A DNA stretch of 64,000 nucleotides from Hymenoscyphus infarciens (lineage: Eukaryota; Ascomycota; Leotiomycetes; Helotiales; Helotiaceae), in contig LLCB01000166.1 in assembly GCA_001414345.1 (NCBI GenBank), positions 1-64,000 on the forward strand, given 5' to 3'. The notes under the pieces were generated by a model. The model saw only the letters and a list, made by a program, of their open reading frames with translations. It was not told the origin of the DNA and made no database searches. The translations under genes and the position numbers were made by a program. Shown here piece by piece: positions 16,281-64,000 of the stretch (its first letter is position 1; each line of letters starts with the position of its first letter).

Positions 16281-16490
16281 GCTTATATAAGAGCTAAAAC
16301 TAACGTAAGAATTCTGCTCTACTAAGAGTCGTAGAATCTTATCTAAATTCTTATAGAATAAAAAGTTAGCTATTAAAAAAATAATTCTATATAAAAGCTA
16401 AAACTAATATAAGAACTTAGCTCTACTAAGAGTTATAGAATCTTATCTAAATTCTTATACTTATAGAATAAAAAGTTAGCTATTAAAAAA
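16281..16490. repeat. Tandem duplication of about 105-110 bp
   Basis: Two adjacent, near-identical copies (about 16281-16388 and 16390-16490) share GAGCTAAAACTAA-type starts and end in a run of A followed by TAAT. The second carries a small insertion. Both are AT-rich. There are no coding features. Confidence 0.65.
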
Positions 16491-24824: not shown

Positions 24825-25301
24825 TATAATAGTATAAAATATATATAACTATAGTAGAGGTATATAGAAGTATATATAGTAGAATAACGTATATAGATAC
24901 TAGATACTAATATAGAAGAAAATAATAACTATCTCTCTTTTATACTAAATATAAACGTCTATATATAAGAGTTTAAAAGCTTCTAAGTTCTAATAATAAT
25001 AATAACCGAGCCCTGTCTAATATAGCTAATACTAAATAATAAGAGCTAAAAAGCTAAATATATAACCTCTAATCCTTTAAAAAGCTAAATATATAATATC
25101 TAAACCTTAATCCCTTCTATATATAAATATTAGATATTTAATACCTTCGGCACTTCGCTTATATAAGTATTAGTTATTCGTAATCTCGGCCTTAGAGATA
25201 TTAGAGATATTAGCAGTACTTAAGAGTATTAGCAGTTTCACGAATACTAATAATTCAGAATAGTACTATTATATAATAATCTAGAATAGTATACTATTAC
25301 A
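24825..25301 (-). repeat. 5' LTR of the gypsy element (477 bp)
   Basis: This is the partner of the LTR at 17253-17729. Its outer end preserves the unmutated terminus, CTATTACA on the plus strand, and abuts the CTACT target duplication. Confidence 0.85.
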
Positions 25302-25310
25302 CTACTAAGC

Positions 25311-25786
25311 TATAATAGCACGCTATTCTAGATTATTATATAATAGTACTATCTTAAATTATCGACATTTATAAAACTACTAATACTTCTAAGTACTACT
25401 AATACTCTTAATATATCTAAGGCTGAGATTATAAATAACTAATACTTATATAAGCGAAGTATCGAAGGTATTAATATCTAATATTTATATATAGAAGGGA
25501 TTAAGATTTAGATATTATATATTTAGCTTTCTAAAGGTTTAAAGGTTATATATTTAGCTTTTTAGCTCTTATTATTTAGTATTACCTATATTAGATAGAG
25601 CTTAGTTATTATTATTATTAGAACTTAGAAGCTTCTAACCTCTTATATATAAACGTTTATATTTAGTATAGAAGAGAGATAGTTATTATTTTCTTCTATA
25701 TTAGTACCTAGTATTTATATATATTATTCTACTATATATACTCCTATATACCTCTATTATAGTTATATATATTTCGTACTATTATA
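25311..25786 (+). repeat. LTR, left copy of the second element
   Basis: It is the inverted counterpart of 24825-25301, beginning TATAATAG and ending CTATTATA. One base shorter than the 477-bp LTRs. Confidence 0.8.
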
Positions 25787-28700: not shown

Positions 28701-30054
28701 TAAGAAACTTATAATAAAAACCTAAGATAAAACACTAACTAGTAAGAATATTTAAAATTAATAAAGTAAAGAACTAAGACTAAGTTACTACTAAAATAGA
28801 GTCTATATATCCTCTTCTTCTTCTAACTTATTATTCTCCTCTCTACTCTCTTAAGTATAAGAAGCCTAAATTAGCTCTTCCTTTACTACCTCCTTCTTAT
28901 AGAGACGCTTCTTACCTTAGCGACCTCTTATAACCAGCTTTAGAAGAGATATCTATAAACTCTTTAAATAGGCCTTAAAGAGAACTTAAACCTAGGTTTA
29001 GATAGAGGTTCTACTCTCTATAGTATAGTATAAGAACTATTGAATATTAGTAACTAAAACCTCTCTAATAAGTAAGAGATACTTATAGTAACCTTAGTAC
29101 GAAGTATTCGAGTCTATTTTAGAAGAGCGAACTATACTTTTAAACTATTCTTTAGTACTTCTATACTAGTAACAACTAATACCTTATCTAAGGCTTTAGT
29201 AGCTTTCTTAATCTCCTTCTTCTCCTTCTTAAGCTTAAGCTTATTAAACTCCTTCTTAATAAACTATAATAACTATCTAAGTTAGAATATATTTAGTATA
29301 TATTTAAGATTAAACTTATTAGAATATATATAGTATTCTACTCTATATAATACCTATACTTCTTTAACTTTAGCTTTTTAAAAGCGTATACGTAATCTCT
29401 ATTCTAAGATTTTATCTGAAAGTACTAAACGTAATAGACTTAGTAGATAGCTAGAAGCGTACTAGGAAGACATAGGAGAGGCATTTTACTATATTAGATT
29501 AGCTCTAAATTAGGCTTAATTAAGAAGAGAAAGACTTACTTTTATATATATATATATATTCTAGGATATAAGTTAGTATATAAGAATATACTTAATTAGA
29601 AGATATTCTTACTATATATATATATTATTTTAAATAAAAAGAAAAAAAGAAGAGAAGTTAGAATTAGAGAAAAGTCGTCTACTAATATACTACTTATAAT
29701 AATAGCTATTACTTTATAATTATTATTTATTACTTAATAATTACTATTATAATATATAATAATAGTAAGAATATAACAACTCTATAATAGTATACTACTT
29801 TCTACTTAATAGCTAATAATCAGCCTCTCTTCTATTTACATCTATTATTATATAGTATATAATAGTAAATAAAGAGTAATTATTCTATAAAGAATAATAC
29901 TACTAGCTACTAAACCTACTCCGACTACTAGATACTATAATAGTAGACAAATTATATTCTTTATAACAAATACGTAAATAATACTCTAGATAATCTAATA
30001 CTATATTAATTAATAACTAAAGACTTAGAATAAGTCTTTTTAAAGAAGAGAGAA

Positions 30055-30426
30055 TATAATAATATACTATTCTAAATTATCTAAATTATTAGTATTTATA
30101 AAACTACTAATACCTCTACGACTTATAAGAAGAAAGATATTAAAGAGAGTAAGAATCGGATATTATATATTTCGCTTTAAGACCTTATATATTTAGCTTT
30201 AAAGCTCTTATTATTTTAGTAGCTATATTAGAAAGAGTTTAGTTATTATTCTTATTAGAACTTAGTAGTCTCTAACCTCTTATATATAGATGTTTATACT
30301 TAGTATAGAAGAAGAATAGTTTTTTCTTTTCTTCTATATTAGAGCCTAGTATTTATATATATTATCCTATCTTAAACGTACTTCTATATACCTCTTTACT
30401 AGTAGTATATATTTCGTGCTATTATA
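30055..30426 (+). repeat. LTR, right copy of the second element, deleted
   Basis: It starts TATAATAA and ends GTGCTATTATA, and matches the family at both ends. About 105 bp are missing in the middle compared with the full 477-bp LTR. Confidence 0.7.
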
Positions 30427-31400
30427 TTTCGATATTATATAGTATATAGAGCCTTCTTATTACTAGAAGCGAAGTTCTAAATCGAGGTTCCTTTTTAGAG
30501 AGTAAGTATAATATAGCTTAAAGTAACCTCGTTAACTTAAATTCGTCTTTTCTAGTAAGAAGGCTAGAAACTATACTAGATACGAGATATTAAAAGAACG
30601 TTAGTACTAGTATTAGATATCGAGTAATAAAAGCTAAATTAAAAGCTAGAAACCGTGTTAGATACGAGATACTAAGAACGTTAGTACTAGTATTAGATAC
30701 TAAGTAATAAAAGCTAAATAGTTTAAAAGAGACAAATTCGTCTTTCTATTAAAAATAAGAAGTTTAGAATAGATACTACTTAGTAGCTATCTATAAAGAA
30801 GCTATTAGATTAATAGCGAAGGAATAAGTTATTAAAATAATAATAAATTATACTAATCTATATTTACCTTATTACTAGATACGAGAAAGTAGGAAGTTAT
30901 ACTTAGCTACGAAGCGAGCTAAACTAATTATTAAACTCTTTAAAAGCTATAAAGGTCCTTCTTAGAACTAAAATAACTAAAATAGTTACTTATAATCTAG
31001 AATAAGAGATAAAAAGTACTTACTAGAGCGACGGATAGAGAGTATAAAACTAGATATTAAAGAAAGCGTGAATAGTAAAGAAGTAGATAGCGTAGACACT
31101 AGCGCTATTCTAGAGAGTATAAATAGTTATACTTAGCAAATTAAAGAGTTTCCGCTATATCTTTATAATATATAAAATTAATATTATTTAGTTATATAAG
31201 ATATAAAATAGTTATTATTAGAATTATTACTAGTATAGAGCTATATAGAGTAAATCTAGACGTTTATTCTATCTTTAAAGAGCACGCGTTTAGATACTAG
31301 TTTAGCTACTAGAGAATAAAAGAAGTAGTATAAGAAAGAGTTTTAATTATAGTATATTTATTCGTAGAATATAGAATAGAGAATAGAGAATAGAGCTATA

Positions 31401-31689
31401 TATAATAATACGAATCGTATACTACTATTAAAGAGATATATAGAAGTACGTAGAATTAGAATAATATATATAATTACTAGGCTTAAATACTAAGAAAAAG
31501 AATAAATTAGCGTTTATAAAATAGAGAGAGAGATATATAAGAGTTTAAATAATATAAATAGAGGTTTAGAGAAAAATAAAAGGTTTTAGAACTAAACCTA
31601 CTCTAATATAGATAATAATAATAGTCTAAAGTCTAACTATTAAGTAATCTTAGTTATTATAAATAGCTAGTTATTATATAGCTATTATA
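31401..31689 (-). repeat. LTR-like fragment
   Basis: The ends resemble the TATAATA.../CTATTATA termini of the LTRs nearby, and internal words such as AGAAGTACGT and TACTAGGCTTAAATAC recall the second LTR family. It is strongly degraded and placed by eye. Confidence 0.35.
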
Positions 31690-32243
31690 TTATACTTTAT
31701 AAGTTTTTAATTATAAATTAGCACTTCTAGAGAAGATTTATAGCTCCTAGCTTTCTTTTTAATTTCTAGGCTCTTATATTTCTTCTTTATATAATAGGAT
31801 ATTAGAAGAGTAGTAGTATCTTCTACGTAATCTCTCTAGCTACGTAATAACCTATTATACTTTGCTTCTATATTATACTCTCTAGAGTCTTTACTCTCGC
31901 GCTTTTAATCTAAGAAAATAATTATAATTATAAAAGTAAAAGATTATATACTCTTCTCTTCTCTCTAAATAAGATATAAGCGTATAGCTATTATATTATA
32001 CTAAAAGTCTATATAGTCTATATTTTATTTAGAGAGAGAAGAGAGAGTAAGGTTTTTATATCTTATATACGCGCTTTTTCTAGAAGAGAATAGAAAGGTT
32101 ATATAAAATATCTAAAAAGGCTTAGTAACTATAAGAATCTAATACTCTAGTCTCTATTTTTTTCTTTATATCTTTTCTACTCTTCTCTTATTCTCTTCTT
32201 ATCTATCTCTCTATTCTATCTTTCTAAAAAGTAGAAGAGATAT

Positions 32244-32631
32244 TATTATAGCCTATTACTTAGGCTATTCTAGATAGCTAAGAGTATCTACTATATATAA
32301 GGTTCAGCTATAGTATATTTAGCTTTCAGCTATTATTATTTTATATTATCTAATTTAGAAAGGTTACGTACGTCTATACGTCTATCCGGACTTTTAGACG
32401 TACTTCGTAGAGTTTAGGCTTTTATATTAGCTAATATATATCGTTATTTAGTTTTAGACCTCTTTTATACTATCTAAACCTCTTATATATAGCTGTCTAC
32501 TCTTCTAGAGTTAGAAAAGGCTAGTTTAGTCTTTTCTTCTATATTAGAGCCTAGTATTTATATATATTATTCTGTCTCAAATATACTTCTATATATCTCT
32601 TCAGTAGTAGTATATATTTCGTACTATTATA
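32244..32631 (+). repeat. Solo LTR, family 2 (388 bp)
   Basis: It is closely similar to 56261-56617 (same strand) and 59359-59682 (opposite strand). Shared blocks include GGTTACGTACGTCTA, CTCTTATATATAG and the TTCGTACTATTATA end. No matching LTR lies close by in the same orientation, so it looks solo. No target duplication is seen. Confidence 0.65.
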
Positions 32632-32681
32632 GAGAAAAGTAATAAGAAAGACGTACTCTAGTAAGTAAGAAAGACTAAGTA

Positions 32682-33386
32682 GTAGCGTTTTCATTCTTCT
32701 AGTCTACTAAACACGCCTTTCTAAGCTAATTTAGTTATTCTTCTCCTAGCCTTACTTTTTACTCTTACTCTTCTTATTCTAACTAATTAAATCGCTTAAT
32801 TCTTCTTTTCTATTCTAGTATAAAGAGTGTTTAAAGCCTTTCTAGGCCTAGTAGATAAGTAGACTAGATAAAGCGTTTAGTCTATAAGTTAATAAACTAA
32901 GAGGTAATTAATTACTAGCTATAGTCGATAAATTAAAAGATAGTTAATTACTAGCTATAGATTATAATAAAATTAAATATTAGTCTTCGTTTACTCTAAT
33001 AGAGATAAGCTCTTAGTATTATTAATAAATATAAATTATACTCTCTAATAGCTATACTATAGATATATTATATAATAGACTTAGTTTAACTCTTCTTCTC
33101 TATCTAGTTTTGTCTATTTTATTAGTTTTTAGTATTTTTAATACTTTTAGAGGTTCTATTTAATACTACTTTTAGGAATTCTAGCCTAGTCTACGTTCTT
33201 CTTTCTTAGCTATCTAACTTTTTTACTTCTTCTATCTTATTCTATTCTCTCTCTTAAGCCTTATCTAGCCTCGTCTCTCTTACTAAATCCGGCTATAAGC
33301 TTACCTTTGCCTAGCCTAGAAGAGGTAGATAGTCTAGATTAGCTAGTACTTAAATTAAGAAGAGACTAGGAGAATAAAAACGCTAC
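32682..33386. mobile_element. TIR element copy 1 (705 bp), TA target duplication
   Basis: The left terminus GTAGCGTTTTCATTCTTCTA and the right terminus (inverse, about two mismatches over 22 bp) are each flanked by TA (32680-32681 and 33387-33388). There is no coding capacity. A TA duplication with short TIRs suggests a non-autonomous Tc1/mariner-Fot1-like MITE. It is homologous in reverse orientation to 34140-34619. Confidence 0.65.
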
Positions 33387-34139
33387 TAGGTAGCTAACTA
33401 GAAGAGTAAGAAAAAAAAGGCAAAAGTAGAAAGTATAGCTAGAAACTAAGTATTATCTAGTAATTTATAATTAAAAAGTATAGCTCTATTCTCTATTCTC
33501 TATTCTATAGTTGAAAGGCTTTTGAAATTTTTATCTACTTTTACTTACTCTAGAGAGACTTAACTTACTAATACTTTTACTAGCTATTATTAGCGCGGGA
33601 GTTAGTAGTTTAGTTATTACGAATTAGTTAAATAAAGATAAAGAAGATAAAGAAGATAAAAGTAGTAGAGTTTTAGCGAGAGATAAGAGAGGAATATAAA
33701 GTATATAAAGATTATTTCTAGAACTAGTAATAAAACGTAAGAGAGTAAGTACTTTTAATCTAGTTATTTTTTACTATTTAAAAATCTATTCCTAGAATAG
33801 TAGAGTAAGTAAAGTTATATAGATTATTAAATCCGCTAATTTTGCTTTCTAAAAGCGATACTAGCGGCTAGAGTAGTATAAACGTACTAATTACTCTAAG
33901 TAAGTGGAATTAATTCTATAGAAGTTCTAAAAGTAACTAAGACTAGAGTTAAAAGAGATTTATAAGTTATTAGCTCTAATCTCTAAGATTATCTAATAGC
34001 TATTATATAGTTTAATTTATCGAATTAATAATTCTCTAATCTCGACTTAATATTTAATAATCCTTCTTATAATACTAGTATATAGAAGGAATACTTCACT
34101 AGTTATATAAGGCGAATTACTTCTACACGCTCTAGAATA

Positions 34140-35456: not shown

Positions 35457-36134
35457 ACCACTAAGGCTGGTTCTAGAACCGCGGGTCTTCTCTCACAAAA
35501 TGCAATCGACTTTTTACCCAGTGTGTACAACTTTCCACCACTCCTTCGTGGATTCGAAGCCCAAAAGAAACCCCTGGCAAAAGTATTTGCTTCAAACACA
35601 TCAGGTGTAGCTGGATACCCCTTCCGAGGAAACGGTGCATCCCCGGCACCCTCCCATAAAACGACCTCTCGCGGTACCATAACCCTTGTTCTAACAAACC
35701 CTCACTAGCTCCCATTAGTCCAATTCAACACACTTCAAAATCCAACCGGCACAGCAATCATTCTAGCAGTAGTAAAGCACGCCCGTGCCTTCTGGACTTC
35801 TCCTGAACTCGCGCAGTTCAAACCAGTTGAGATAACACCAGGTGCTCAATACCAAACAGTTGAACAGCTTCTAGAGGCATTGAAAGCTGGGTCTTTACTT
35901 CCCTCTCTTTCTCAACCTATTGGGACTTGTGCTATGATGCTGGAGAGGTTGGGATGTTGTCTGGGGAGTGATTTGAAGGTTTATGGAGTGAAAGGGCTGA
36001 AGGTTGTAGATGCTAGTATTATTCCGTTAATTCAAGGTGGCGTTTTGCAGGCTGGTGTTTATGGCATTGGGGAAGTGGCTGCTGATATAATTAAGGGACG
36101 ACGTTGGATTATTGTACTGAGCTTGACTTCATGA
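35457..36134 (+). pseudogene. GMC oxidoreductase, C-terminal remnant
   Basis: One plus-strand frame reads a GMC C-terminal domain: RGTITL, then an FW..PEL region, QPIGTCAM, GLKVVDAS, and a final QAGVYGIGEVAADII. A single TAG at 35706-35708 interrupts it and the FAD-binding N-terminal half is absent. In the family the motif is HPxGTC, with a catalytic His; here it is Gln. The second catalytic position (Asn or His before xQA) reads Val. It therefore cannot be a working oxidase or dehydrogenase of the usual kind. It lies against the AT-rich compartment, so the 5' half was probably lost to rearrangement there. Confidence 0.8.
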
Positions 36135-41728: not shown

Positions 41729-42668
41729 TTTTGCTTGTCTTTCACGGGGAGAGATGAGATGGGCTTTCCTCTGATGTTGTGAGTAAAGTGAAGAAGCGAA
41801 AAAGGATCGGAGGAATTACACCTGTTCTCTGAGAACGACGGAGAATCCCAATTCTTCTAGACGTTCTCGCAGAATGCCGCCTTACTAGCCTTTAGGTTGT
41901 AATTTAAGGTATACTAGTAGATCTTGAAGTATTCGTAGATCAGTTTGGAGAGGGATGTGGAAAGCACTACTGTTCAGCCAAAGCTGTTCAACCTCGGCAT
42001 TGTTTGAGGAGGGTGCAGGTGTTGTATAAGAAAACAACGTAGCAATACTATACTACTAGATAGAGCTGAGCCCTGGCTCTGGCCTAGCTGTATATAAAGA
42101 AACTCTTCGATATATGTTCTTTCAAATATATTCGATGCTGTCCCAACCCAACCTAACCCAACCGTCGGGCTGAGGGGAAGCCGGGATTTCTCCACAGAAC
42201 TCGGCAGATTTATGTGGCGTAATGACGTCTCGTGGCTGACTTGAACACCTCCCGTCAGAGGTCTAGGCCGTACAGAGTACACGCGAGCGCCGGGTATTAC
42301 CGAGTAGCTCTTGGGCAGCTCTGAGGTAGAGGTGGGTAGTTCAAAAAACGTGTGTTGATGTGTTGTTAAATTCATGCGAATTATAATTCTGTATATCTGT
42401 GTGTCGAAGTTTCTATTCCGGAAGTTCCGACATGATGAATTCCTTTGTTGGTGGAGTTGTGGCAGTTGAAACTTGGAGATGTTTGGCGTGGTTTGCATAT
42501 GCAGCATGGCAGTTGTTGATTGTTGGACTTTGAGAAGGGGGTTAGTTAGCGTTCAGCTTCAACAAAAGTCAACGAGTAAGGTCACCGACACTCATCAAGC
42601 TTGAATTTGCCTCTTGAGGTGTCTGAAGAAAAAGCTCATTCCTCTTCACCTCATCTACCATACAAGAT
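41729..42668. other. Intergenic
   Basis: This lies upstream of the epoxide hydrolase and far upstream of the Seg-like gene. A weakly AT-biased patch is near 41,885-41,945. No gene is supported. Confidence 0.6.
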
Positions 42669-42745
42669 CGCTTGACCATCGCTTGACCATCGCTTGACCA
42701 TCGCTTGACCATCGCTTGACCATCGCTTGACCATCGCTTGACCAT
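42669..42745. repeat. 11-bp tandem repeat, seven exact copies
   Basis: CGCTTGACCAT is repeated seven times without change over 77 bp, ending 309 bp before the start codon of the Seg-like gene. The perfect identity implies recent expansion. It could act as a cluster of binding sites upstream of that gene, or be a neutral minisatellite. Confidence 0.95.
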
Positions 42746-43054
42746 CGCATTGTGAAAGATCGTCAAGTTGTCTTCCGCAAGCAGAGTCCCGGTATCCACA
42801 CCAAATCCACACCAAATCCACAATCTTGTCCATCCAACCAATCCTCCAGCTGCACGCAACAGTGAATGGCACTCTGGCTCCTCTTCTCGCCAAACCACAT
42901 CAACTGCGCCATCGTCATACCCGGCTCGTTGAAACGGATGTTTGTTGCGAATTTCTTCTCAACCTCATCAGCGCCATCCTCTCTGCCTATGCGATAGCAT
43001 TCTTGACACAGCCCCTTGTTGGCAAAGGTCCTACCAGACCGCCCAATTCTCGAC
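42746..43054 (+). promoter_or_regulatory. 5' flank of the Seg-like gene
   Basis: This region is C-rich and pyrimidine-rich with a short CCACACCAAAT duplication near 42796-42820. Several short ATG frames occur but none continues into the gene. Promoter status is inferred from position only. Confidence 0.4.
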
Positions 43055-48769: not shown

Positions 48770-49828
48770 TTAATCCTGGTCTCTGAGATTATCCCACAAA
48801 GTGTCCCAAACAGCTGGATTCTCCCCCTTCCTCGGATAATAAACCACATCTTTCGGATTTGTTCCGTCTCTCAAAGCCTGAATATCCTCAACCCTGGGGT
48901 GTGGCGTACTATCCATTGTGGGCTCACCATTAACCATAGGATAACTAATACCCAACTCCGGATGCACCAAGCTCTTCTCATCGAATAACGAGAAAAATCG
49001 GTCCCCAGCCCAGTTATCGAGAGCTTCCCAATTTGCACATTCCCCGTCGACTTTAAAGTTGGCCCAGGGACGACGGTAATTGGGGAGCCAATCGTAAGTT
49101 ATGATGCTAAAATCTGCGTTGCATTGCACCGTTTGACGGAGGTCCTCGAGGCAATGGTCTATTTGAATTGTCAGTCTTCTTCGATTCACGCAATTGAAAA
49201 GGGAAAAAGAGGAGTGAAGTTTACCAAGATGACTCCACATCCAATCTTCCTCGGGTAATCCGTAGTAGTCACGATACAACACTCTTCGAACACTTTTTAT
49301 ACAATGCAAATGGTGATGTGCACTCAAGCCGCCAAAGAAATCACCACTTCCATCTTGTAATTGTATACTCGTGCGGTTCAGTTTCTTCAACTCCTCGGCC
49401 GAGATGCGAATGTTGGAATTGTGAAGAAGGTCGCGCCATGCTGCATCACCTTCTGGCGTTGGGTAGCCCGCGTATGGTGACTTTTTCATGAGGTCGTTAT
49501 TTGCATGTACGAGCTCGTATTTAACTGCTGATCGTGCAGGTGCTGGATTTTGTTAGAAAAGGTGAACAAGAAGTACATATTTGAACTTGCAAAAGATCAT
49601 ATCGGGGTGGCAGTTTTGACCGCGAAGTGTCTTGGCCATGGAAATGAAAGCGATTGTGTAAGACACAAATATTAAAATGTGGATGTATAGTGGTCTCAAA
49701 CATGTTCGGGATTTCTTCCTTGGGATGATATCTTCTTCAAAGCCATAGTCTTGCTGATCTTGTAGAAGGAGAGAGGAACTTGAGTTCGAGCCCTCTTCAG
49801 CGGCGTCATGTTCTTTGGGTTCCGACAT
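48770..49828 (-). CDS. UstYa-like protein 1 (DUF3328)
   Basis: Three exons, 49828-49591, 49542-49225 and 49158-48770, give 945 nt and 314 aa. Intron 1 (48 bp) is GC-AG: donor GCAAGT, branch CTAAC, acceptor CAG. Only this splice restores the family's SPA motif (S80-P-A) in frame. Intron 2 (66 bp) splits the second HXXHC. A cytosolic N-terminus precedes one membrane segment (about 46-66). The luminal domain carries HHLHC (156-160) and HLDHC (184-188), followed by LRQTVQC. The paired HXXHC motifs define the UstYa family, copper-dependent proteins that oxidatively cyclise ribosomal peptides (ustiloxin, asperipin) or modify related products. It is divergent from the KR-repeat precursor across 602 bp, so that peptide is the likely substrate. 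Confidence 0.9.
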
Positions 49829-50430
49829 TTAGAGAATTTTTGAAACTTTCGGGCGTGGGACGCTCACTTCGTTATGAGAAGGTATTCAAAAGACTGGGAG
49901 TTATTGTATTAGCAAAGAGGTCTCTGAGAATCATTAGAACGAGCTTACGAGCCCCACCGCCACTAGTCTTCAAGTATTTGCAAAACTATTCCCTAGTAGA
50001 ATGACATCCGTAAGCTGCATGCATGCATCGAAGTGGCAAAAGATGATCACTGGGCAACGGCCTGTAAATTGAGTACAAGGATCTTTGACCGCCCTTTCGG
50101 CAACAAAGATTATGCAATGCAAAGGACCCAAAGGCCTCATCAACACGTTTAGGTGCGAAGTTGCATTCCTGAAAGGGAAAACGACGTGCATATGCGAAGA
50201 GTGACATTCCTGAAGAGGTAAAACGCAATACCGTGTGCTTTTGAAGCATCACGAGTCTCGTTGGATAGCATGCTACATCGTTTATACATCGTCATTACAC
50301 CACTCTCGACTTCATAAGAAACCAAGCTCCTATACTTATAAGAACAGCAACTTCAGACTTCTCAATATCCAGTTCAACTTCATCTTCCACTTCCACCTGA
50401 AATTACGAAACGCTCAAGGAATACTTCAAT
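49829..50430. promoter_or_regulatory. Shared divergent promoter, UstYa-like 1 / repeat precursor
   Basis: The two start codons are 602 bp apart, facing away. An imperfect direct repeat CATTCCTGAA(R)RGG-AAAACG lies at 50164-50183 and 50205-50225, 41 bp start to start. A TATA-like CTTATAAGAA is at 50335-50344, about 90 bp before the precursor ATG. The geometry suggests joint control of both genes. The direct repeat is a candidate activator site but untested. Confidence 0.5.
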
Positions 50431-51032
50431 ATGCATTTCTCCAAATTACTCTTGTTGCTTCCAGCACTTGCTGCCGCTGCTCCATTACTACAGGGAGCTG
50501 CTCAACCTCCAATTCTTGTAGCTCGGGCTGTGGATGAAGATTTGGCCAAGTCAGTACCCAGTTGGGAATCTCAATTGGCAAGAACTGACATCGAAACTTC
50601 AAGATATGGCCGCAGCACTGACGAAGACCTCGCCAAGTAAGTAGAATATATCTCCAAATTCCCTGCCTGTATCACCCGTTCTAATCCACACCAAGGTATG
50701 GCAAGCGCGCAACCGATGAGGACCTTGCAAAATACGGCAAACGTGCTACTGATGAAGATCTCGCCAAGTAAGTAGAATTATCTCCGATTTCCCTGACTTA
50801 ACAGCGCGTTCTAATAAACACCAAGATACGGCAAGCGTGCCACCGACGAGGATTTGGCCAAGTATGGCAAGCGTGCAACTGACGAAGACCTCGCCAAGTA
50901 CGGCAAGCGAGAAACCGATGAGGACCTTGCCAAGTATGGCAAGCGGGCAACTGATGAGGATTTAGTCAAGGTAGGACTCCCCTCCAACTCGCTCTCCACT
51001 GCAATCTGACTGAATCATAGTATGGCAAGTAA
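50431..51032 (+). CDS. Secreted KR-repeat RiPP precursor (KEP-type)
   Basis: Four exons, 50431-50636, 50696-50767, 50826-50970 and 51021-51032, give 435 nt and 144 aa. Introns are 59, 58 and 50 bp. Residues 1-17 form a clear signal peptide (LLLLLPALAAAA). A leader to about 61 already holds DEDLAK-like pieces. From Y70 the unit YGKRATDEDLAK is repeated six times and ends YGK. Kex2-type cleavage after the six KR sites (72-73, 84-85, 96-97, 108-109, 120-121, 132-133) would release four identical ATDEDLAKYGKR units, one starting E, and a last one with V for A. Codons differ between copies although the peptide does not. This matches Kex2-processed repeat precursors of dikaritin RiPPs, with UstYa-like genes as neighbours. 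Alternatives are an unmodified secreted peptide family or a signalling peptide. It lacks the usual alpha-pheromone W-C motif. The mature product is unknown. Confidence 0.85.
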
Positions 51033-51933
51033 ATGCTTCGGCAAAGCATGTTTTTTAGTTGCACGGAACTTCAAAAGCATAGAGAAGTAGAACAACGGAA
51101 AGTCCTGGACATTAGATAGCTGCAAATACAAACCGATTGGTGTTCTGTGATTTTTGGCATTCCTTTTCAAGATGTCAGTTTGGTATACTTATGTGCCGTT
51201 GTTGTGTATGATGTAAAGACCTAAAGAATAAGTAAAATGGTGGTTGTAAGTGAACAGTGTATACAAGGCCATAGCCAAAAGACTAATACTCAAAAAAAAA
51301 AACGATTGTATTTCGTTCGAAGTCCGTTGCTGGTTTAAGCTTTTCAGTCTAAGCGAAGGCGAGAATGTGAACTCCCCCAAAAACAAGGCGTAGTATCAAT
51401 TCACCGTAAAAGTATATTACCCCTGTTTAAAGTTGTAGGACTTTTTTAAATTTCTCATAAAGTGTTGTCACCAAAATGATGGTTTCACTTGTAACTGATT
51501 ACGTGGGATTGTCGCCAACTTGTCAATGTGGAGTCTTGATGACAGTTGACAACGTCGTGCAGTCCCGAACGGGAAAGTAAAATCAAGGATGACCGGAAAG
51601 AGGCCGGAGCACGTGTAAAACTCGACAACCCCTATCATATTAAGTGTTTCTCTGATTCGATACTGTATTGATTTCATTAGTGGATTACTCCGTATCTTTG
51701 ACGTTGAGGTTGTCTTGGACCTATTTTCCCGCTAAAGGGATCTACGATGGAGTACGGGGGTACCTCCGTATATAGCGGGCCGCGCCGCTCCACCCCCGCC
51801 CCGTACGGAGTGCCACCGGTCAACGTTCAACACCCATAAACGTCAAGCTCTCACTGCTTCTTTTTTCACTTACTACCCCATGAATAGATCGCTCGTTCCT
51901 CATTCCAGCTAGAACATCTCCACATCAACAAGC
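51033..51933. promoter_or_regulatory. Intergenic; 5' flank of the GNAT gene
   Basis: The first part is the 3' flank of the precursor. The last 250 bp hold three CTCCGTA/TACGGAG words (51686-51694, 51749-51770, 51801-51810) in GC-rich DNA, possibly promoter elements of the acetyltransferase gene. No gene is supported. Confidence 0.45.
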
Positions 51934-52557
51934 ATGGCGACCGATATCGCGGACGTCTTCTCCTCCTCTCGACTGAGGTACCGCGCCGTTGAAGACACTC
52001 CCGAAGACGAAGCTTTATTCCACGCCATCCAGTCCGACACAGCAGCGTATGCAGGCTCCGACACCGGTCTCCTCAAGCCAATGACGAAGAAAGAAAGCCT
52101 CGAGCACAAGAAATACGTCCAGGACAAGACTCTCCTCGGAGTTGTCATCTGTATGCCTCAACCCGAGGGACACGCTCCGCTACCGATCGGCTGCATCTAC
52201 CTCACGGAGACCAAACCCAGTCAGGCGCACCATCGAAATTCCTTCATCAGCATTGATATTCTTGCCTCGTATCGGCGGAAGGGGTATGGCGGGGAGGCGA
52301 TTGAGTGGGCCTTGGGCTGGGCTTTCAGGATTGCGGGATTACATCGTGTGGGGATTGAAGCCTTTTCCTACAATGAGGGGGCGAGGGAGCTATACGAGCG
52401 GCTAGGATTCACATATGAAGGCTGTAAGAGGGAGCTTTTGTGGTTCAACGGCGGCTGGCACGATTACCTCTCCTTTTCCATGTTGGAAGGCGAATGGAAG
52501 GCGAGGCAGGAGAGGAAAATAGAGCTGGCACTTGCGAAGGAAGAGAAGAAGGAATAG
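51934..52557 (+). CDS. GNAT-family N-acetyltransferase (RimJ/RimL-like)
   Basis: A single exon of 207 aa. The ATG at 51934 is the first in-frame ATG of the gene. The acetyl-CoA site is visible as RRKGYG at 114-119 after a beta-strand SFISIDILAS; the family's C-terminal N-x-x-A-x-x-x-Y-x-x-x-GF pattern is present (NEGARELYERLGF), then a charged Lys/Glu tail. These enzymes acetylate alpha-amino groups, small amines or antibiotics. There is no signal peptide, so it is likely cytosolic. It lies between the precursor and the second UstYa-like gene; it could tailor the peptide or be an unrelated neighbour. A secretory-pathway peptide would be out of reach of a cytosolic enzyme, which argues for the latter. 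Confidence 0.9.
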   Translation: MATDIADVFSSSRLRYRAVEDTPEDEALFHAIQSDTAAYAGSDTGLLKPMTKKESLEHKKYVQDKTLLGVVICMPQPEGHAPLPIGCIYLTETKPSQAHHRNSFISIDILASYRRKGYGGEAIEWALGWAFRIAGLHRVGIEAFSYNEGARELYERLGFTYEGCKRELLWFNGGWHDYLSFSMLEGEWKARQERKIELALAKEEKKE

Positions 52558-54056
52558 AGAGCACGATTACTGTTACGAATTTACGAATAGAGGATTGGAG
52601 CGGCAAATACCCGGAAAGCTACGATATGGATATGGTGAGTTTTCCTTATCTTGTTCAAAAGCTCGAGAGGGAATGAATTAAGCGGCAGTAAGGTGGGGTG
52701 GGGTCAATTGAAGCTTTCCAACGCATTCCAGGTTGTTTATTGAGCCTCTATTTTGGTGGAGTAGCGCTTATGCATAAGATGGTAATGTAACGCAACAGCG
52801 TTACACCCCGAGTTGATATGGCGCTCACAGGTGCATCTCTTGATAACAACAGTTCTCGACCACCCCGCGATCCTCGGTCAGCACTAGGTATCCAATCTTA
52901 CATGTACGCGTGACAAGTCGTGCACCATGTACAATGACCTTCCTCATCTCGTTAGCCTTACATCATGCCAAGGTAGCTGCATTGTTGTGCGAAGGAAGCT
53001 GGGTGCGGAGTAGCCAAATGCAATAGTGGCAAACAAAGATTACACAGATTAAGTAAATGCAGCCTCTTGGTGGGCATTACATATGGTAGTCATTAGGCCT
53101 CCTCTACACTCTGTCCTAGCGTAAATGACTCAACGCAAAAAAAGATACCCATCCAAAGACTTGTGGTATAGTAAACTAGTAGCCTGCGCATCTAGACTTA
53201 TTTTTATCTTATTTTTACGACTATTCTTTATCGAAAAATCTTCATCTCTAATATTCGTGAGGCCACCTATTTACTGCCACTTACAATGTCCATCGGAAAT
53301 GCATCTTCTAACGCCACTTCAAGGTGCCTCGCTAATGCAGTTGTCGATGGTACGATGCATGCAGCATAACTGTTTCGTTTATGCCCCGTCATTTTTCTAT
53401 GCAAGGACAAGGAAAAAAGCACATCTTATACCGAACTTGCGTGCACAACGGCAAATGTCATCAAGGCAAAATTGGTCTTACAGGCATACCCGTCTTGAAA
53501 GTAAGATTATAGTACACTCGCTGAAAGCTTCACCGAATTGATTACCACCGAGAAAAGTGATATGTCTACTGCAACAATGTGGCGAAGAAGAGTCCTTTGC
53601 GGGGGATGAATAGCCACGGCTTTATGCGCTTTGTAAGGAATTGGAATAGACAACACTGCACCAACAGGAATGGGACACGATTAGCCCCCTCTTTTTTCAT
53701 CAAAAATCAGAGTGTACAGTGTAGCCTGGTAGTGGAGTCAACAACTAAATGTCATCCATTCATGTCTGTAGGTGAGCAAGGGCGAAAGTTTTGTTGTGAG
53801 ATGTTGACGTCGATGTTTGAAAACAAATTATGAGAACAGGATCACGTCGGCCTTTAGCCCACAAAAAATGGAAGAGTAATATATGAGGCGCTGGGATTTT
53901 CTTGAGCAGTTGCTAAATCAAGATGCCCTTTCTAACTGGACAAGTTGGGGTGGATGTTCTTGCTCCTGATGATACTCATGTCAATCAGATTCCAATGAGC
54001 TCGGTCTGATTTCGCCATGGAAATTTTCAAACTGGGTAGGAAGTACTATTCTAAGA
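52558..54056. other. Intergenic, 1.5 kb, no gene supported
   Basis: Composition is normal. A 138-codon frame at 53125-53541 has no domain or signal and a random-looking composition. No element ends are seen. Confidence 0.5.
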
Positions 54057-55003
54057 TCAAATGTGGTGATTGTGATTGTGATCATGCCCGCTCGATGGCA
54101 TACTATGCTCCTCCATGAAGCCTCTGATAAATTCCTAATATTCAATTAATAAGTCTAGAATATGTAGAGAAAACCGAATGTCTCTTACCCGGCTGCGACA
54201 TTGATGTGACATCCCATACCCATTAATATGATAAAGGCCCCCAAGCTCGTCCGGTTCCTCCGCCGCCCATTCAACGGTCATATCTGCATTGCACTCCACA
54301 GTCTGACGAAGGTAATCAAAACAGTGTGTAATATGGTGCAATCGTTCTCGATCTTGCGCATCCAAGTGTTCTTCCCCGTTGACGAAGTCGCTTTTGTTGC
54401 TCAGTAACAGGCGGTATTCATTTCGAATCATCATGAGACAATGCGTTTGGTGTGTCCAACTGATGCCGTATTTATTGCGCTCATGATTGCCGCTTGGGAG
54501 GCCCGGAGGAAAATCTAATTGTGAGGGATTTTGGATGTATATCATGCCGTCTCCGTTAGGGAGCCAATTGGTCCAAGATTCGTCGTCTAGTTTTGGGAGG
54601 ATGACGGTAGGCTCCATTGGGACTGTCACATAATAATCAGTTTTGCGAATTCCAAATTTGTTTGTTCCGAGGAAGATGGGGAGAGAGATCAAGTAAAGAA
54701 AATTTACACGATAAAAATGTACATACTCGGAGTCTGAAAGAGTTCTTTCCTCGAAGTCTGTGTGTCCCTGAGAAAATACAAGCCAAAAATAAAGAGAAGG
54801 ATCGCTCCTGAAAGACCTGCGCAACATAAAACAAAGTAGCGGACAGCGAAACTCTGCTTCTTATTTTGTCGCAATGATTCATGAAGCAGATCCATTTCGC
54901 TCTGATCATCTACTGTGAGAGGTTGGTAAATCTTGAAAGACTCTTTGAAATTAGAGAAGGACCATTTTGGTCGTTGATAGAAGACCTTCTCGACAAAACT
55001 CAT
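54057..55003 (-). CDS. UstYa-like protein 2 (DUF3328)
   Basis: Three exons, 55003-54727, 54622-54189 and 54134-54057, give 789 nt and 262 aa. Introns are 104 bp (GTATGT...CAG) and 54 bp (GTAAGA...TAG). The ATG at 55003 follows CCCAAA; the frame upstream has no ATG. A basic cytosolic N-terminus precedes a membrane segment at about 54-77. The luminal part has DESWTNWL, then HQTHC (150-154) and HITHC (189-193), followed by LRQTVECNAD and the C-terminal HQCRS. The last exon adds 25 residues ending in a His/Asn-rich tail; reading into intron 2 would replace it. It is strongly divergent from UstYa-like 1 and so probably does a different step. Dikaritin loci often carry two such proteins working together. 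Confidence 0.88.
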
Positions 55004-55394: not shown

Positions 55395-55660
55395 TCATTG
55401 AGTTGGGAAAGTCCCTATGTCAATATCATCTAAGCCTTCGTCACCAACATCCACTTCTTCATCTCCGTCTGGACTGTTCGTAGGCTTACCATCAGGCCCA
55501 ATGCATACAGGTGGAACTCCAGGCTAACGAGCGTGTGAGCATCACTTCATAGAAATATTTGAATGACGCAGAGCTGAAAGAGATTTTAACATACAGGAGG
55601 TAAGGTTGGATAATTCCTAGAGGGCCAAGTATAATTGGGATGACAACGATACCCAGTGGC
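55395..55660 (-). pseudogene. 3' remnant of an unidentified spliced gene
   Basis: Two minus-strand segments, 55660-55595 and 55523-55395, join in frame over a 71-bp GTATGT...TAG intron to give 64 codons and a stop. They read Pro-rich sequence (YPTLPPPGVPPVCIGPDGKP) and an Asp/Glu-rich tail. Further upstream (about 55,700-55,860) the same strand reads Pro/Thr-rich peptide with stops, in DNA already drifting to AT-rich. It looks like the C-terminal linker of a secreted protein whose 5' part has decayed. I do not recognise the family; a chitinase-type C-terminus is only a guess. Confidence 0.3.
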
Positions 55661-56617: not shown

Positions 56618-59358
56618 ACTTCTAAGTATTATTCTCTATTATCTTCTAATTTCTAATATAAATTCAGCTCGTCTAGTACTAAAGACTATAGCGAAGATAC
56701 TACTTAGTAATATATGTCTTTCTCTACGAGCTTAGTTATATTAATAGAGATCTCTTATATATTTCAGGTCGGACTAAGATAGCTATATATACTATTAACT
56801 AGCTCGCTTTCTATTTAGAACTTCCTTATTAATAAGAGTGAATTTAGATAATAGAGGAATAGAAAGCGGATTACTTCTCTAATAAAAGGTCTAGCTTATC
56901 TAATTCTTCAAGAATAAGGCCTAATAATAGACGCTAAAAAGCACGCTAAGAAAGAGAATACTATAGCTAAAATCGTTTATCGTCGAGAGCTTTCTATAGC
57001 TAGCTTATCTAAGAACTACTTCACGGATATAATTTTCGAGTAAATTCGAATAATCTCGATAGAGTTCAAGTATACGTAGAATAAGAAACTCGTATACGAT
57101 ATATCGTTTCTTATAAACTCTAGAGTAGTAATAGTCGAGTAGTATAATACTAAGAACCTTCGTACTATAATCCGAATATAGATATATATTCGCTAGTTTT
57201 ATAGTCGTTATAAATTAAAGAGGTATTATTAGTAAAGTTCTAGTCTCTATCGAATAAGGTATAATTAGACTAAAAACGGTTTTAAGCCTTCTTATAGTTA
57301 AATAGAATCTTTTTACTTTAGGAAAGCTTACTACTATTAATATAGTTAGTTATAAGTTAAGCTTCCCTAGTTTTAAAGAGCTGAGAAAAGCTAAAAAAAA
57401 AGGTTTTGAAAAGTCCGTGTCTTAAAAAAAGCCTCTCTAATACCTCTCTCTCTCTCTCTCTCTCTCCTTTATCTAGATTAAAGACTCTCTATCTTCTTCT
57501 TCTTCTTTTCTATAATCACCTCTATTTAGAGCATTATAGTAGTTCTCTTTAAGTATAGCTATTAAGTATTCTTTATAAGCCTCTTTATCTTTCTCTTTTA
57601 TCTTAACCTTTTTAAGTATCTTTTATATCTCTTATACTTAGAACTTTCTCTTCTTCTCCTTTTATCTATATAATAATTCTTAAGAGTAGATAGTGTTTTA
57701 ACTTATAATAAACTCTTAATATAAGAGGCTAAAATTAGTAAAGTATATTTTAAAAATAAGTTTAATATACTTTTTAATTTAATTAAAGTTATTTATAATT
57801 TCTTAGAGATTCGAGGTATTATTACTATCTAAAATAGTATTAAGAATAAGGTTCTTTTTATAATAAGTAAGTTTTAAAGCTATTATTATAATATAAGAGA
57901 AGAGATTTTAAGATATAGACTTTTTAAAACTTTTTTTTAGCTTTTTCTTATCTTTTAAAACTAAGGAAGCTTAACTTATAACTAACTATAATTTAGATAT
58001 TTATAGTCTTAGAATAGTAATATCTAAGGTTTATTTCTACTCTTTCCTTACTTATAGTAAGTACTAATACCTCGATTAGTAAAATACTATTATATCTATA
58101 AGAATTAATACTCTCGAAGAATAATTTAATAGATAAGCTATACTACTATACTACTACACTTTAATAACTCTTAGTTTAGTTAAAGTTTATAAGATAAGAG
58201 TGAATTACGTAAGAAGTAGAAGATAAAAAAGAATTAATTAACTTAAATAAAAAAACTAAGAAGCTATCTACTCTATATATATATATATAAGCTATAGCTA
58301 GCTTTCTAGTCTAAAACTAGTATAGTTCTAAGTCTAAAACTATAGATATAACTAATCTATTAGATAAGGTTAATCTATATACTCGGATAGTATTTAGTCT
58401 ATTAAATAGTATTAATCTATATTAGATATTATTTAGTTTATTAAATAGTATTAATCTATATTAGGTATTATTTAGTCTAAGCTAGATATTATTAATCTAG
58501 TAATATTATACTATACTAGTATAATTTAATACTAGTATAAGTGCTTATTATATACTAATATACTCTCTTAATAAGTACTTCTATTTAACTTATTTTAATA
58601 TATTAGTTAAGAGTATTAATCTTAAGTTTTCGCGCGTTAGTATATAACTTATTATTCTAATTATATAAGAAATTATTAGAATTTTATTTTATTAAGTGCT
58701 TTAGTAAAGCTATCTATCTTTTAATTTATTAATTTTATATATATTAGATTTATAGTTCTTTTAACTAATAAGTCTCTTATATAGTAGTATTTAAAAGTTA
58801 TATACTTTATTTTTTTATAATATATTAAGTTATAGCTTAATTATAGAGCTTTTTTATTATTAGTATATAAACTAAATCTCTTTTATTTATAAAAACCTAG
58901 TTCTTTAATTAAAGCTATTATATAAATAGATTATTTTAAAGCTATATATATAGTTATATTTAGCTTTAGTTATAGATTAAGATATAATACTTTATAGCTT
59001 AGAATACTATATAATTAGTCTTCTAGCTAAGTAGAAAATATATCTAGTAGTTAATTTAGTACTATTAATATTACAAATATAATTAGAGTTATAAAACTTA
59101 CTTATAAAATAGTATTATACGGAAATAAAGTTATATAACACTCTATTTACTCTATATATATAGTAGAGTTTTCGAATATAAGGCTTTTTAAAGTGTTTTC
59201 AACTTAAAAATACGTTATAGTTATAAGCTCGGTTTATATATATAGTATATTAAATTTATACTTATAGTATACTCTATAATATCTTTAACTTCTACTTATA
59301 TATTTAACGTTACTATGTATTTAGAACGCTCTCTGCTATTAGTTAGTATAATTAATTA

Positions 59359-59682
59359 TATAATAGTATAAAATATATACTACTATAGAAGAGGTATATA
59401 AGAGTACGTTTAGAAGAATAATATACGTAGATACTAAGCTCTAATATAGAAGAAAGAGCTAAACTAGCCTTTTCTAACTCTAGGAGAGTAGGCTACTATA
59501 TATAAAAGGTTTAGATAATATAAAAGAGTCTAAAACTAAATAATAACATATATTAGCTAATATAAAAGCCTGAATATATATAACCTTTCTAAAACAGATA
59601 ATATAAAACAATAACTACTAAAACCTTATATATAGCAGATACTTCTAGTTATTTAGAATAGCCTAGGTAATAGACTATTATA
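59359..59682 (-). repeat. LTR, family 2 (324 bp), inverted
   Basis: The plus strand starts TATAATAG and ends CTATTATA. The interior is the reverse complement of the copies at 32244 and 56261, including TTAGCTAATATAAAAGCC. It faces the copy at 56261-56617 rather than forming a direct pair with it. Confidence 0.6.
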
Positions 59683-60418
59683 AATCCTTCGATACTTACG
59701 TTCGACGTGTATTTAGAAGCCTAGCTACGTATAAAGCTAGTATATCTTAATTTAGTAGCTTACTCTCTCGAAGAGCTTATATAAAGCCTAGCTACGAAGC
59801 TAGCTACTACTACTCTTAGAGGTGTTATAAACTAGAAGCTACGCTAGCTTACTCTAAGAGATACTCGAAGATATATTCGAATTCAAAAGCCTAGTATACT
59901 ACGAAGCTAGTATATATATATAACGCTAACTATAAGCTACTATTTCTTACGAACGCTACTCGCTATCTTTATTAAAGCTAGAGCTAATAATATACTAGAG
60001 TATAAGAGAGGAAGTTAGATAGAATCTAGGAGTAAGAACTTACTCTTAGATCGCTATTTAGAAGTTTAAAGTAATCTATATAGCTTTGTAGAATTATCTA
60101 GAGTAGGAATAGAGAGCGATATAGTTAAGAGATTCTTTTATAATCTAGCCGTTGTTTATAAGCCTAGGAAGTTGTCTCTTCTAGACCTAAGAAGTATATT
60201 ACGTAGAAATAGAGTTATATAATACTCTATTTCCTCTATATAGATAGTAGAGTTTTCACCTCTAAGTATAAGGCTTCTTAGAGCGTTTTTAATCTAAAAA
60301 TACGTTATAAATAGTAGCTAGATATAACTTTTATTATATATATAATATAATAGTAAAGAGTTGTTTTTAGATATCTTAATATATACTTAGCTATTATAAA
60401 GTACGCTTTAAAAGAGTT

Positions 60419-63400
60419 TAATATATACTTATATACTCTCTACTAGGGTTTTAAGCTAGTATTAACTTAGACTTAATACCGGTTTAATACTGGTTTAAGA
60501 TATTAGTTATTTCTTAAAATAGTTCTAATACGTTTTATAAAACGATTTAAGGTAATTTAACCTGATTTATAAAACGATTTAAGGTAATTTAACTTGATTT
60601 ATAAAACGATTTAAAGTAATTTAAGCTAATTTATAAAATAAATTAAAATAAGAAACTAATTTATAAAATAATTTAAAGTAATTTAATCTAATTTATAAAA
60701 TAATTTAAGCTAATTTATAAAATAATTTAAAGTAAGAAACTAATTTATAAAATAATTTAAAGTAAGAAACCGATTTATAAAACAATTTAAAGTAATTTAA
60801 CTTAATTTATAAAATAATTTAAGTTAATTTATAAAACGATTTAAAGTAAGAAACTGATTTATAAAATAATTTAAAATTATAAACTAACTTATAATCTAGC
60901 TCTTAACTTAGTTTAAAAAATATATTTAAAATAAAGTACTTAGAAGAAAAAATAAAAAGTTTAAAGAGAGTATTTTTTTTTTAAAAAACAATTTAAGTAG
61001 CTTTTTATATATAAACCTTATATAATTTTTAAATTCTAATAGTCTTTAAATTTAAAGCTACTAGTATATAAATTTAGTAAGTTATATAACTAAAGTAAGT
61101 TATATAGTAGAGCGTAGCTTTTATATTAGAGTCGCTCTTACTAAATATAGTATACTACGTATAACTAGCTATATAACTGCTAAGACCTAGTATATAAGCT
61201 ACTTCTATCTTCGACTTTAATATCTTTGACTTTAATATCTTCGACTTCGATACTTTACTTTAACGACGACGACGACGACGACGATAACTATCTATTACTA
61301 TTATATCGTATTTCTTACTCGGTATCGGCATTAGACTACTTATTAGTATTATAATCTAGGTCGTATTCGTTGTATTCGCTACTCTAGTTAATTCTACGTT
61401 ATTGAATAATAATAATAACTTATCTCTTCTTTTTCGACGATTTAGGTATATTTTACGGTTAGACTTTTAGTAGAGTGAATAAGAAGCTCTGAATTAGTTA
61501 TCTAGTGAATTAGAAGCATCGGATTTATTATCTACGTTATTACTATCGCTGTTACTGTCGCTATTACTTTTATAGTATATACTATTTCTACTCTTGCTTT
61601 TTAAACTAACGTACGTGTCTTATAGTTTCTAATCGACTAACTAATCTAACTAATTAAATCGAGGTATATATATAAGAATAATGTTATTTAAGTTAGTAGA
61701 ATCGGTGAAATTAGTAGAATCAGTAGAATCGGTGGAATTAGTAGAATTAGTAGAAGTAGAACTTAGATATTCGACGAACTAGAGTATATTATATAAGAGT
61801 AGTATAGCTACGTAATATACGTCTAATTACGTGATTTTAGTCTTTTTTAATACTTTACTACTAATTAGTAAGAGTTTTAAGTCAGGGTTAAATTAGGTTT
61901 AGAGGTGATTTAGACTAATTCTAAAAGCGTATTTAAGTTAGTTTATAAAATAGATTAAAGTAGTTTAAAATAATTTAAGAACTAGGTTTAATATACTTTA
62001 AAACTGACTTAAGATAATTTATAGTAGTAAAACTTAACTCGTTTTAGTAAGTTGAACTAGGTTATAAACTAGGTTAGATAAGTTAAGTTAGTATTAGATA
62101 CTAGTTTAACTTAATTCTAGACCTATCTTAAACTAGTAACTTAGTATTAGAGTAGCTTTAAATTAGTACTAAAAACTATTTATTACTAGTAAATATATAT
62201 TAAAAAAGACTAAAATTACGTAATTAGGCGTATATTACGTAGCTATACTACTCTTATATAACGTGCTCTAGTTTGTTGAATACCTAAGTCTAAGTTCTAC
62301 TTCTACTAATTCTACTAATTCTACTGATTCCACTGATTATTCTACTAAATGTTCTACCGACTTAAATGACGTCATCCTTATATATATACCTTGATTTGAT
62401 TAGTTAGATCAGTTAGTTAGTCAGTTAGTTAGTTAGAAACTATAAGATATATATATTAGTTTAGAAAGTAAAAGTAGAAATAGTATATACTATAAAAGTA
62501 ATAGCAATAGCGATAGCGATAGTAATAACATAGATAATAAATCTAAGGCTTCTAATTCGCTTTGTTGAAAGTCTAACTATAAAATATGTCTAAATTGTTA
62601 AAAAAGAAGAGTTATTATTTAATAACGTAGAATTAACTAAAGTAGTAAACGTAATAAATATAACGTAGATTATAATACTAATAAGCAGCCTTATACTAAG
62701 TAATAAATATAATATAATAGTAAAAGAGAGTTATTATTATTATTATTATTGTTATTATTATTAAAGTAAAGTATTAAAGTCGAAGATGTTAAAGTCAAAG
62801 TTAAAGTTAAAGTTAAAGTTAAAGTTAAAAGTAAGAGTAGCTTATATACTAGGTCTTAGTAGTTATATAGCTAGTTATATATAACATACTATATTTAGTA
62901 AGAGTAACTTTAGTATAAAAGCTATACTCTATTATATAATCTACTTTAGTTATATAACTTACTAAATTTATATACTAATAGCTTTAATTTTAAAAACTAT
63001 TAGAATATAAAAATTATATAAGGTTTATATATAAAAAGCTACTTAAATCACTTTAAAAAAAAAAACACTCTCTTTAGACTTTTTATTTTTTCTTCTAAGT
63101 ACTTTATTTTAAATATATTTTTTAAACTAAGTTAAGAGCTAAATTATAAGTTAGTTTATAATTTTAAATCGTTTTATAAATCAGTTTCTTACTTTAAATT
63201 ATTTTATAAATTAGCTTAAATTATTTTATAAATTAAGTTAAATTATCTTAAATCGTTTTATAAATTAGGTTAAATTACCTTAAATCGTTTTATAAATCAG
63301 TTTCTTACTTTAATTCGTTTTATAAATTAGCTTAAATTACTTTAAATCGTTTTATAAAACGTATTAGAGCTACTTTAAGAAATAACTAATATCTTAAACT

Positions 63401-63812
63401 ATTATTAAACCAGTATTAAGTCTAAGTTAATACTAGCTTAAAACCCTAGTAGAGAGTATATAAGTATATATTCGCTAGTAATAAATAGTTTTTAGTACTA
63501 ATTTAAGGCTATTCTAATACTAAGTTACTACTAGTTTAAGACGAGTCTAGAATTAAGTTAAACTAGTGTCTAATACTAACTTAACTTATCTAACCTAGTT
63601 TATAACCTAGTTTAACTTACTAAAACAAGTCGAGTTTTACTACTATAAATTATCTTAAGTTAGTTTTAAAGTATATTAAACCTAGTTCTTAAATTATTTT
63701 AAACTACTTTAATCTATTTTATAAACTAGCTTAAATACGCTTTTAGAATCGGTTTAAATCACTTCTAAATCTGATTTAACTCTAACTTAAAACCCTCGCG
63801 AGTTAGTAGTAA
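60419..63812. repeat. Nested long inverted repeats (A-B-A'-B')
   Basis: Block A (about 60,419-61,850) is the reverse complement of A' (about 62,195-63,471), and B (about 61,862-62,197) of B' (about 63,467-63,812). A and B both begin near a GGGTTTTAAG word; A' and B' end near its inverse CTTAAAACCC. The arms are AT-rich, diverged and include simple repeats (CGA, TTAAAG and GTAGAAT types). Boundaries are by eye. Likely nested TIR-type elements; no coding sequence is recognisable. Confidence 0.6.
60530..60890. repeat. Degenerate ~32-bp tandem array
   Basis: Words such as ATTTATAAAACGATTTAAGG recur about every 16-33 bp with GTAATTTAA or GTAAGAAAC linkers. The array is mirrored at about 63,150-63,360 as part of the large inverted repeat. 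Confidence 0.65.
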
Positions 63813-64000
63813 AGTATCTTAATAGTAAAATAATAGTATAGATGATATCTAACCTAGTATAGATAAATAGATATCTAGTAGATAGTTAAGTAGTACTTAA
63901 AATAGTCTAGTATCTTCTAGACTAGCTTAAAGTTAATTTAGTATTAATTTAATCTTAAGATTATTAATATATAGATAGAATTATAATTAAGAAGATTATA

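Follow-up and report, generated by a model that had tools for sequence, protein, structure and literature searches.

A repeat-precursor gene with two UstYa-like neighbors in Hymenoscyphus infarciens, a likely dikaritin-type locus

The locus described here raises the question whether a small secreted protein of Hymenoscyphus infarciens, built of near-identical decapeptides and encoded close to two genes for UstYa-like proteins, is the precursor of a modified peptide, and which of its residues would then carry the bond. It lies in a window of 64,000 bases (bases 1-64000 of contig LLCB01000166.1, here C75, which has 124,650 bases) from a 65.6-Mb genome in 742 contigs. We consider it likely that this is a small dikaritin-type locus for a ribosomally synthesized and post-translationally modified peptide (RiPP), in which Kex2 would free 10-mers and a pair of UstYa proteins would oxidize them. 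Dikaritins were named for Kex2-processed repeat proteins (KEPs) whose products are cyclized by UstYa homologs (PMC10512285). This family assignment, proposed earlier in a sequence-only reading of the same DNA, is supported by Pfam matches, gene models, silent-site conservation and co-localization, and the fungus probably makes an undescribed modified peptide.

An eight-unit precursor and its relatives

Gene models place three genes where the sequence-only reading had put them (Table 1). For the precursor, the splicing into five exons and four introns is a gene model made from sequence. The spliced protein starts with MHFSKLLLLLPALAAAAP, and its N terminus is hydrophobic; the signal peptide was called by hydrophobicity only. 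A short leader with VAR at its end is followed by the repeat units, in the order AVDEDLAKYGR, STDEDLAKYGKR, four times ATDEDLAKYGKR, ETDEDLAKYGKR and, directly before the stop codon, ATDEDLVKYGK. The units are bounded by KR or R, and the 10-mers are of five kinds: AVDEDLAKYG, STDEDLAKYG, ATDEDLAKYG (four copies), ETDEDLAKYG and the terminal ATDEDLVKYG. ATDEDLAKYG is supported as the core.

The same DNA had previously been read as encoding a secreted precursor of 144 residues with six KR-ended units. The gene is real and the six units are present, but in our preferred model the protein has 126 residues, and the 144-residue form would be the product of the same gene with intron 1 retained. Once intron 1 is removed, AVDEDLAKYGR at the start and ATDEDLVKYGK at the end of the series are added, for a total of eight. 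We infer that removal is preferred because this stop-free intron begins with GT, ends with AG and has CTGAC as a branch-like motif, interrupts the repeat at the same point as introns 2 and 3 (AA/R-TAY-GGN; intron 4 does so one base further), and leaves on excision an exact repeat, AVDEDLAKYGR followed by STDEDLAKYGKR. Introns 2 and 3 resemble each other, and Tandem Repeats Finder (TRF) returned periods of 36 and 130 bases. Given this likeness and the 130-base period, exon and intron were probably duplicated as one piece.

Over positions 1-10 of the eight units, the proportion of nonsynonymous differences (pN) was 0.09 vs a synonymous proportion (pS) of 0.79, values that describe duplication-related, non-independent copies and carry no formal test. 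Positions 3-6 (DEDL) and 8-10 (KYG) are identical in all eight units, each of which thus has the Tyr. Since the units differ mainly at silent sites while their residues hardly change, the sequences suggest that the peptide, rather than the DNA, is being kept. A scan for such repeats gave 30 word hits in the 35.5 kb of the window that are not AT-rich vs none in each of 30 dinucleotide shuffles, and over the whole window the precursor gene was the sole non-AT-rich place detected. Hits in AT-rich sequence, namely arrays at 60.5 and 63.0 kb and rows at 60.6-60.7 kb, were dropped. An array at 42.7 kb was likewise dropped as a KEP-like repeat; it is a perfect tandem array of an 11-base unit in 7.5 copies (ATCGCTTGACC, window 42667-42748).

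Two protein searches with the precursor, each scoring the roughly 7990 candidates with most words in common, returned 3 and 4 rows for five different proteins (P0001, P0002, P0003, P0020 and P0021). P0003 (E 0.076), which bears the name Streptomyces shenzhenensis, was set aside as matching by chance, and P0021 because it is the N-terminal part of the precursor in the window itself; of 29 pattern matches in viral_contigs, none was confirmed as a precursor relative. The three relatives that were kept, P0001, P0002 and P0020, lie on contigs of 941, 684 and 1332 bases, too short for flanking genes. Together with the window they give the consensus x-x-D-[EQ]-D-L-A-K-[YF]-G, after which KR or RR stands in most cases and R alone in some. 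Position 9 of the unit is Tyr in P0002 and P0020. In P0001, the leader of which is much like that of the window precursor, it is Phe in the three full units (GTDEDLAKFGRR) and at the C-terminal end; its last unit appears, from the sequence, to be broken by a read-through intron.

Table 1. Features of the locus, by position in the window
Feature	Position	Strand	Description	Basis
UstYa-like protein A	48770..49828	-	314 amino acids; exons 49828-49591, 49542-49225, 49158-48770	PF11807, 161 bits, E 5.1e-47
Upstream region common to protein A and precursor	49829..50430	.	602 bases, genes divergent	coordinates
Precursor gene	50431..51032	+	126 amino acids spliced, predicted signal peptide and eight DEDL[AV]KYG repeats	gene model, translation
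Precursor exons	50431-50549, 50604-50636, 50696-50767, 50826-50970, 51021-51032	+		gene model
Precursor intron 1	50550..50603	+	54 bases, in frame, GTCAGT..CTGAC..CAAG	
Precursor repeat region	50527..51029	+	eight units; further introns 50637-50695, 50768-50825, 50971-51020	
GNAT acetyltransferase	51934..52557	+	207 amino acids, between precursor and protein B	PF00583, 45.1 bits; PF13302, 45.5 bits
UstYa-like protein B	54057..55003	-	262 amino acids; exons 55003-54727, 54622-54189, 54134-54057	PF11807, 65.5 bits, E 8.2e-18

UstYa-like neighbors and the case for modification

Both neighbors had been taken for UstYa-like proteins with two HXXHC motifs each, and the matches to Pfam PF11807 and the motif positions agree with this. 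The motifs, which would have a metal role, are HHLHC at residue 156 and HLDHC at 184 in protein A, and HQTHC at 150 and HITHC at 189 in protein B; a strongly hydrophobic, anchor-like stretch of 19 residues close to the N terminus starts at residue 47 in A and 57 in B. The two proteins are distant (31% over 70 residues) and have a matching stretch, LRQTVxCNAD, after the second motif. When A and B are aligned with 16 relatives from the database, several of which are fragments without the second motif, the H, H and C of the first motif are invariant. The first intron of the gene for A is of the GC-AG type in the model. Relatives of A reach 76% identity over 78% of the protein; the closest named one by identity is from Halenospora varia (Helotiales; 66% over 51%) and the best by E-value from Kalmusia (53% over 82%). 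No PDB chain matches A at E up to 1, and the predicted structure of its relative P0004 (alignment A3, 15 database proteins) has a mean predicted local distance difference test score (pLDDT) of 59.8 and a predicted template modeling score (pTM) of 0.46.

This combination, a secreted precursor with dibasic-bounded repeats and UstYa-family (DUF3328, HXXHC) genes in its cluster, is that of the dikaritins. Signal peptide, Kex2 cutting and carboxypeptidase trimming are known from KEPs (PMC9769878). The precursor would accordingly enter the secretory pathway, be cut after KR or R by Kex2 (the genome has one match to the Kex2-type P-domain), and lose its basic residues to a carboxypeptidase. Up to eight decapeptides of the five kinds would be released, the terminal ATDEDLVKYG perhaps with its K, and proteins A and B, with their HXXHC motifs in the lumen, would oxidize them. 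The most likely ring would join the aromatic residue at position 9 to a side chain some residues earlier. That the peptide would be cyclized is argued by analogy: ustiloxin and asperipin depend on UstYa proteins for their rings (PMC6514808), as phomopsin does for cyclization and desaturation (PMC10512285).

How exceptional the arrangement is within the genome can be judged from the 41 UstYa exon matches on 19 contigs (39 above the Pfam cut-off), which were merged to about 31 genes in 20 neighborhoods. Since sites no more than 5 kb from such a match make up only 0.38% of the genome, a pairing of precursor and UstYa genes by chance is unlikely. This figure also bears on the idea that the decapeptides leave the cell without modification, to act as signals or effectors, and that the adjacent UstYa genes serve another role or are relics. 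Kex2-processed repeats are a feature that this precursor has in common with alpha-type pheromones and linear KEP peptides. Many KEPs yield linear peptides (PMC9769878), 6120 of 7878 KEPs have no UstYa neighbor (PMC7329392), and receptor recognition would fit the exchange of Tyr and Phe together with the conserved DEDLAK stretch. However, this precursor has two UstYa genes nearby, one of them divergent from it, in a genome of which so little is that near to one, whereas mating-factor and pheromone KEPs, as surveyed in PMC7329392, almost never have DUF3328 neighbors (three exceptions). We therefore regard unmodified secretion as unlikely.

Several points weigh against the dikaritin-type assignment itself. 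Protein B lies 3 kb from the precursor with the GNAT gene intervening. None of the 31 tyrosinase matches in the genome is on contig C75, and no methyltransferase, peptidase or transporter was recognized among the window frames put to Pfam (8, then 3), the sole search made; nor was a reductase among these frames. UstYa proteins also act in non-RiPP pathways (PMC12048977). P0021, a database gene prediction on a 2893-base contig, matches the precursor start identically, enters intron 1 by 7 residues and then ends; it is a prediction and no transcript, but it gives the intron 1 splice no support. Finally, relative P0001 has, by its sequence, Phe at the position of the Tyr.

The surroundings could be taken to mean that the genes are adjacent by chance or that the locus is dead, as the stretch that holds it, which bears genes and has 42-51% GC, is flanked by an AT-rich tract on either side (14-34 kb, ~21-29% GC; 57-64 kb, ~19-27% GC). 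Yet the models give each of the three genes an open frame and ordinary introns, the repeats have changed silently with little amino-acid change, and such repeats arose in 0 of 30 shuffles. We hold this explanation to be very improbable. The tracts themselves (window 14001-34000 and 57001-64000, 19-29% GC) contain no frame of >=150 codons and may be transposon deserts altered by repeat-induced point mutation, which they resemble. At the edge of one, a GMC oxidoreductase C-terminal domain (35709-36134, 64.5 bits) possibly marks a truncated gene. A by-eye reading of the minus strand at 55420-55620, adjoining an AT-rich tract, found what may be the 3' end of a gene, short and open (..PPVCIGPDGKP..).

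The aromatic residue at position 9

The ring is usually guessed to be a Tyr ether, and Tyr occurs in 65.6% of UstYa-linked repeats vs 38.2% of others (PMC7329392). The sequence-only reading had taken the Tyr as probably part of the core; that it is the cross-linked residue is weakened by the Phe in one of the three relatives. A special case of the dikaritin-type reading would be a peptide of the ustiloxin/phomopsin type, with an ether from the Tyr oxygen to a beta carbon. The Tyr in all eight units and in two of three relatives would suit such a bond, as would the two UstYa genes, which ustiloxin likewise has (PMC6514808). It is doubtful nonetheless, for the unit lacks a YxI or EDYxI motif, contig C75 has no tyrosinase match, and P0001 has Phe.

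Because Tyr stands here and Phe in one relative, we favor a bond for which the Tyr oxygen is not strictly required, or one that differs between the two species, over a Tyr-specific one. The Phe form of P0001 may reflect a different bond, a precursor with no UstYa partner, or a bond without need of the Tyr oxygen, which argues for caution. Rings between an aromatic residue and Leu are known with Phe, since in victorin the side chain of the C-terminal Phe is described as joined to an internal Leu (PMC9233826). A bolder reading, which we hold to be rather improbable, is a dikaritin subtype with the consensus core given above, in which two UstYa proteins alone would form a bond from the aromatic ring itself, not from the oxygen of Tyr, to a side chain further upstream, for instance the Leu three residues before, a bond that would tolerate either Tyr or Phe. 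Being very small, with a single aromatic residue in each core and with Tyr and Phe as natural alternatives in different species, such a locus would offer a clean test of what UstYa proteins require of a substrate.

Other UstYa-linked repeats and comparison with known systems

A scan for KEP-like repeats near UstYa genes covered 20 regions on 16 contigs and the window's own contig, i.e. every contig with a UstYa match except C425 and C728 (17 of 19). Repeats were found on five of the 17, the window's contig and four others; this is a lower bound, since diverged or single cores would escape the scan. Hits rejected in these regions were an isolated word in L039, a reading of L035 on the antisense strand, and readings of L033 and L043 in the wrong frame.

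On C169 (region L033, C169:214201-224100), KR-bounded REPAQQDSDYTIYKEKR repeats at about 3640-4030 on the minus strand comprise eight DSDYTIYK units and one altered unit, between two UstYa matches ~2-3 kb off on either side. On C381 (L043, C381:200500-210400), EPYSISADKR and SPEPYTIATTDKR alternate at about 7000-7400 on the plus strand near a UstYa match. By sequence, the cores on both contigs are similar to the Y-x-I type known from ustiloxin and phomopsin, that of L033 in particular to the DYxI cores of ustiloxin-type peptides. A tyrosinase match (C381:202871-203530) lies 1.9 kb from the C381 UstYa match and reads through ten stop codons, so that the gene is either intron-rich or broken; repeats, UstYa and tyrosinase matches are the set expected of an ustiloxin/phomopsin-like cluster.

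The remaining two arrays have other cores. C167 (L035, C167:54000-63900) carries four DGTQIGEGW repeats joined by KR (DGTQIGEGWKR) at about 5870-6060 on the plus strand, with Trp instead of Tyr, and about five UstYa genes on the contig. On C110 (L038, C110:29100-39000), units ending in VGI[AST]KR lie at about 3100-3340 on the minus strand near a UstYa match; the five units after the first KR have neither Tyr nor Trp, and two have Phe. The repeats on C167 and C110 suggest that a precursor need not have a Tyr core to have a UstYa neighbor.

Compared with the known dikaritins (ustiloxin B, phomopsin and asperipin-2a), the locus shares the signal peptide, the KR-bounded repeats and UstYa-family genes by the precursor, while its core, ATDEDLAKYG, matches neither YAIG nor FYYTGY, the cores given in PMC6514808. 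It also matches neither the EDYXI motif nor any of the four other KEP cores that PMC6339444 presents as conserved in Pezizomycotina. The asperipin-2a cluster, as outlined in PMC6514808, consists of four genes (precursor, AprY, transporter and reductase) and is similarly very small and without a tyrosinase; it differs in having one UstYa gene rather than two, an unrelated core, and a transporter and a reductase, neither of which was recognized among the Pfam-scanned window frames. Nor does the locus fall into either of these two subtypes: its unit lacks the YxI-type core of the ustiloxin/phomopsin subtype and contig C75 has no match to the tyrosinase of such clusters, and one aromatic residue per unit with two UstYa genes contrasts with the several aromatics forming a bicycle, and the one UstYa gene, of the asperipin subtype. 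The core of victorin, GLKLAF, differs in length and sequence, and those of the epichloecyclins differ in sequence from ATDEDLAKYG. Victorin is nevertheless alike in that its ring is described as joining the C-terminal Phe to an internal Leu (PMC9233826); here, too, an aromatic residue (Tyr, Phe in P0001) is near the C-terminal end, three residues past a Leu. The epichloecyclins (GigA) are alike in KR-bounded repeats within a secreted precursor and in a core with Tyr and Lys (PMC6514808).

The strings DEDLAKYG and TDEDLAK had no match in the literature text searched, a search with the supplementary KEP lists of PMC7329392 and PMC6339444 outside it, and DEDL, DLAK, AKYG and KYG do not occur in the main text of PMC7329392. 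That survey counted 7878 KEPs, of which 2560 were without homologs and 1758 had UstYa neighbors. With 1758 UstYa-linked precursors already catalogued (PMC7329392) vs only five dikaritins reported by 2022 (PMC10512285), the locus is one more member of a large and mostly unexplored set.

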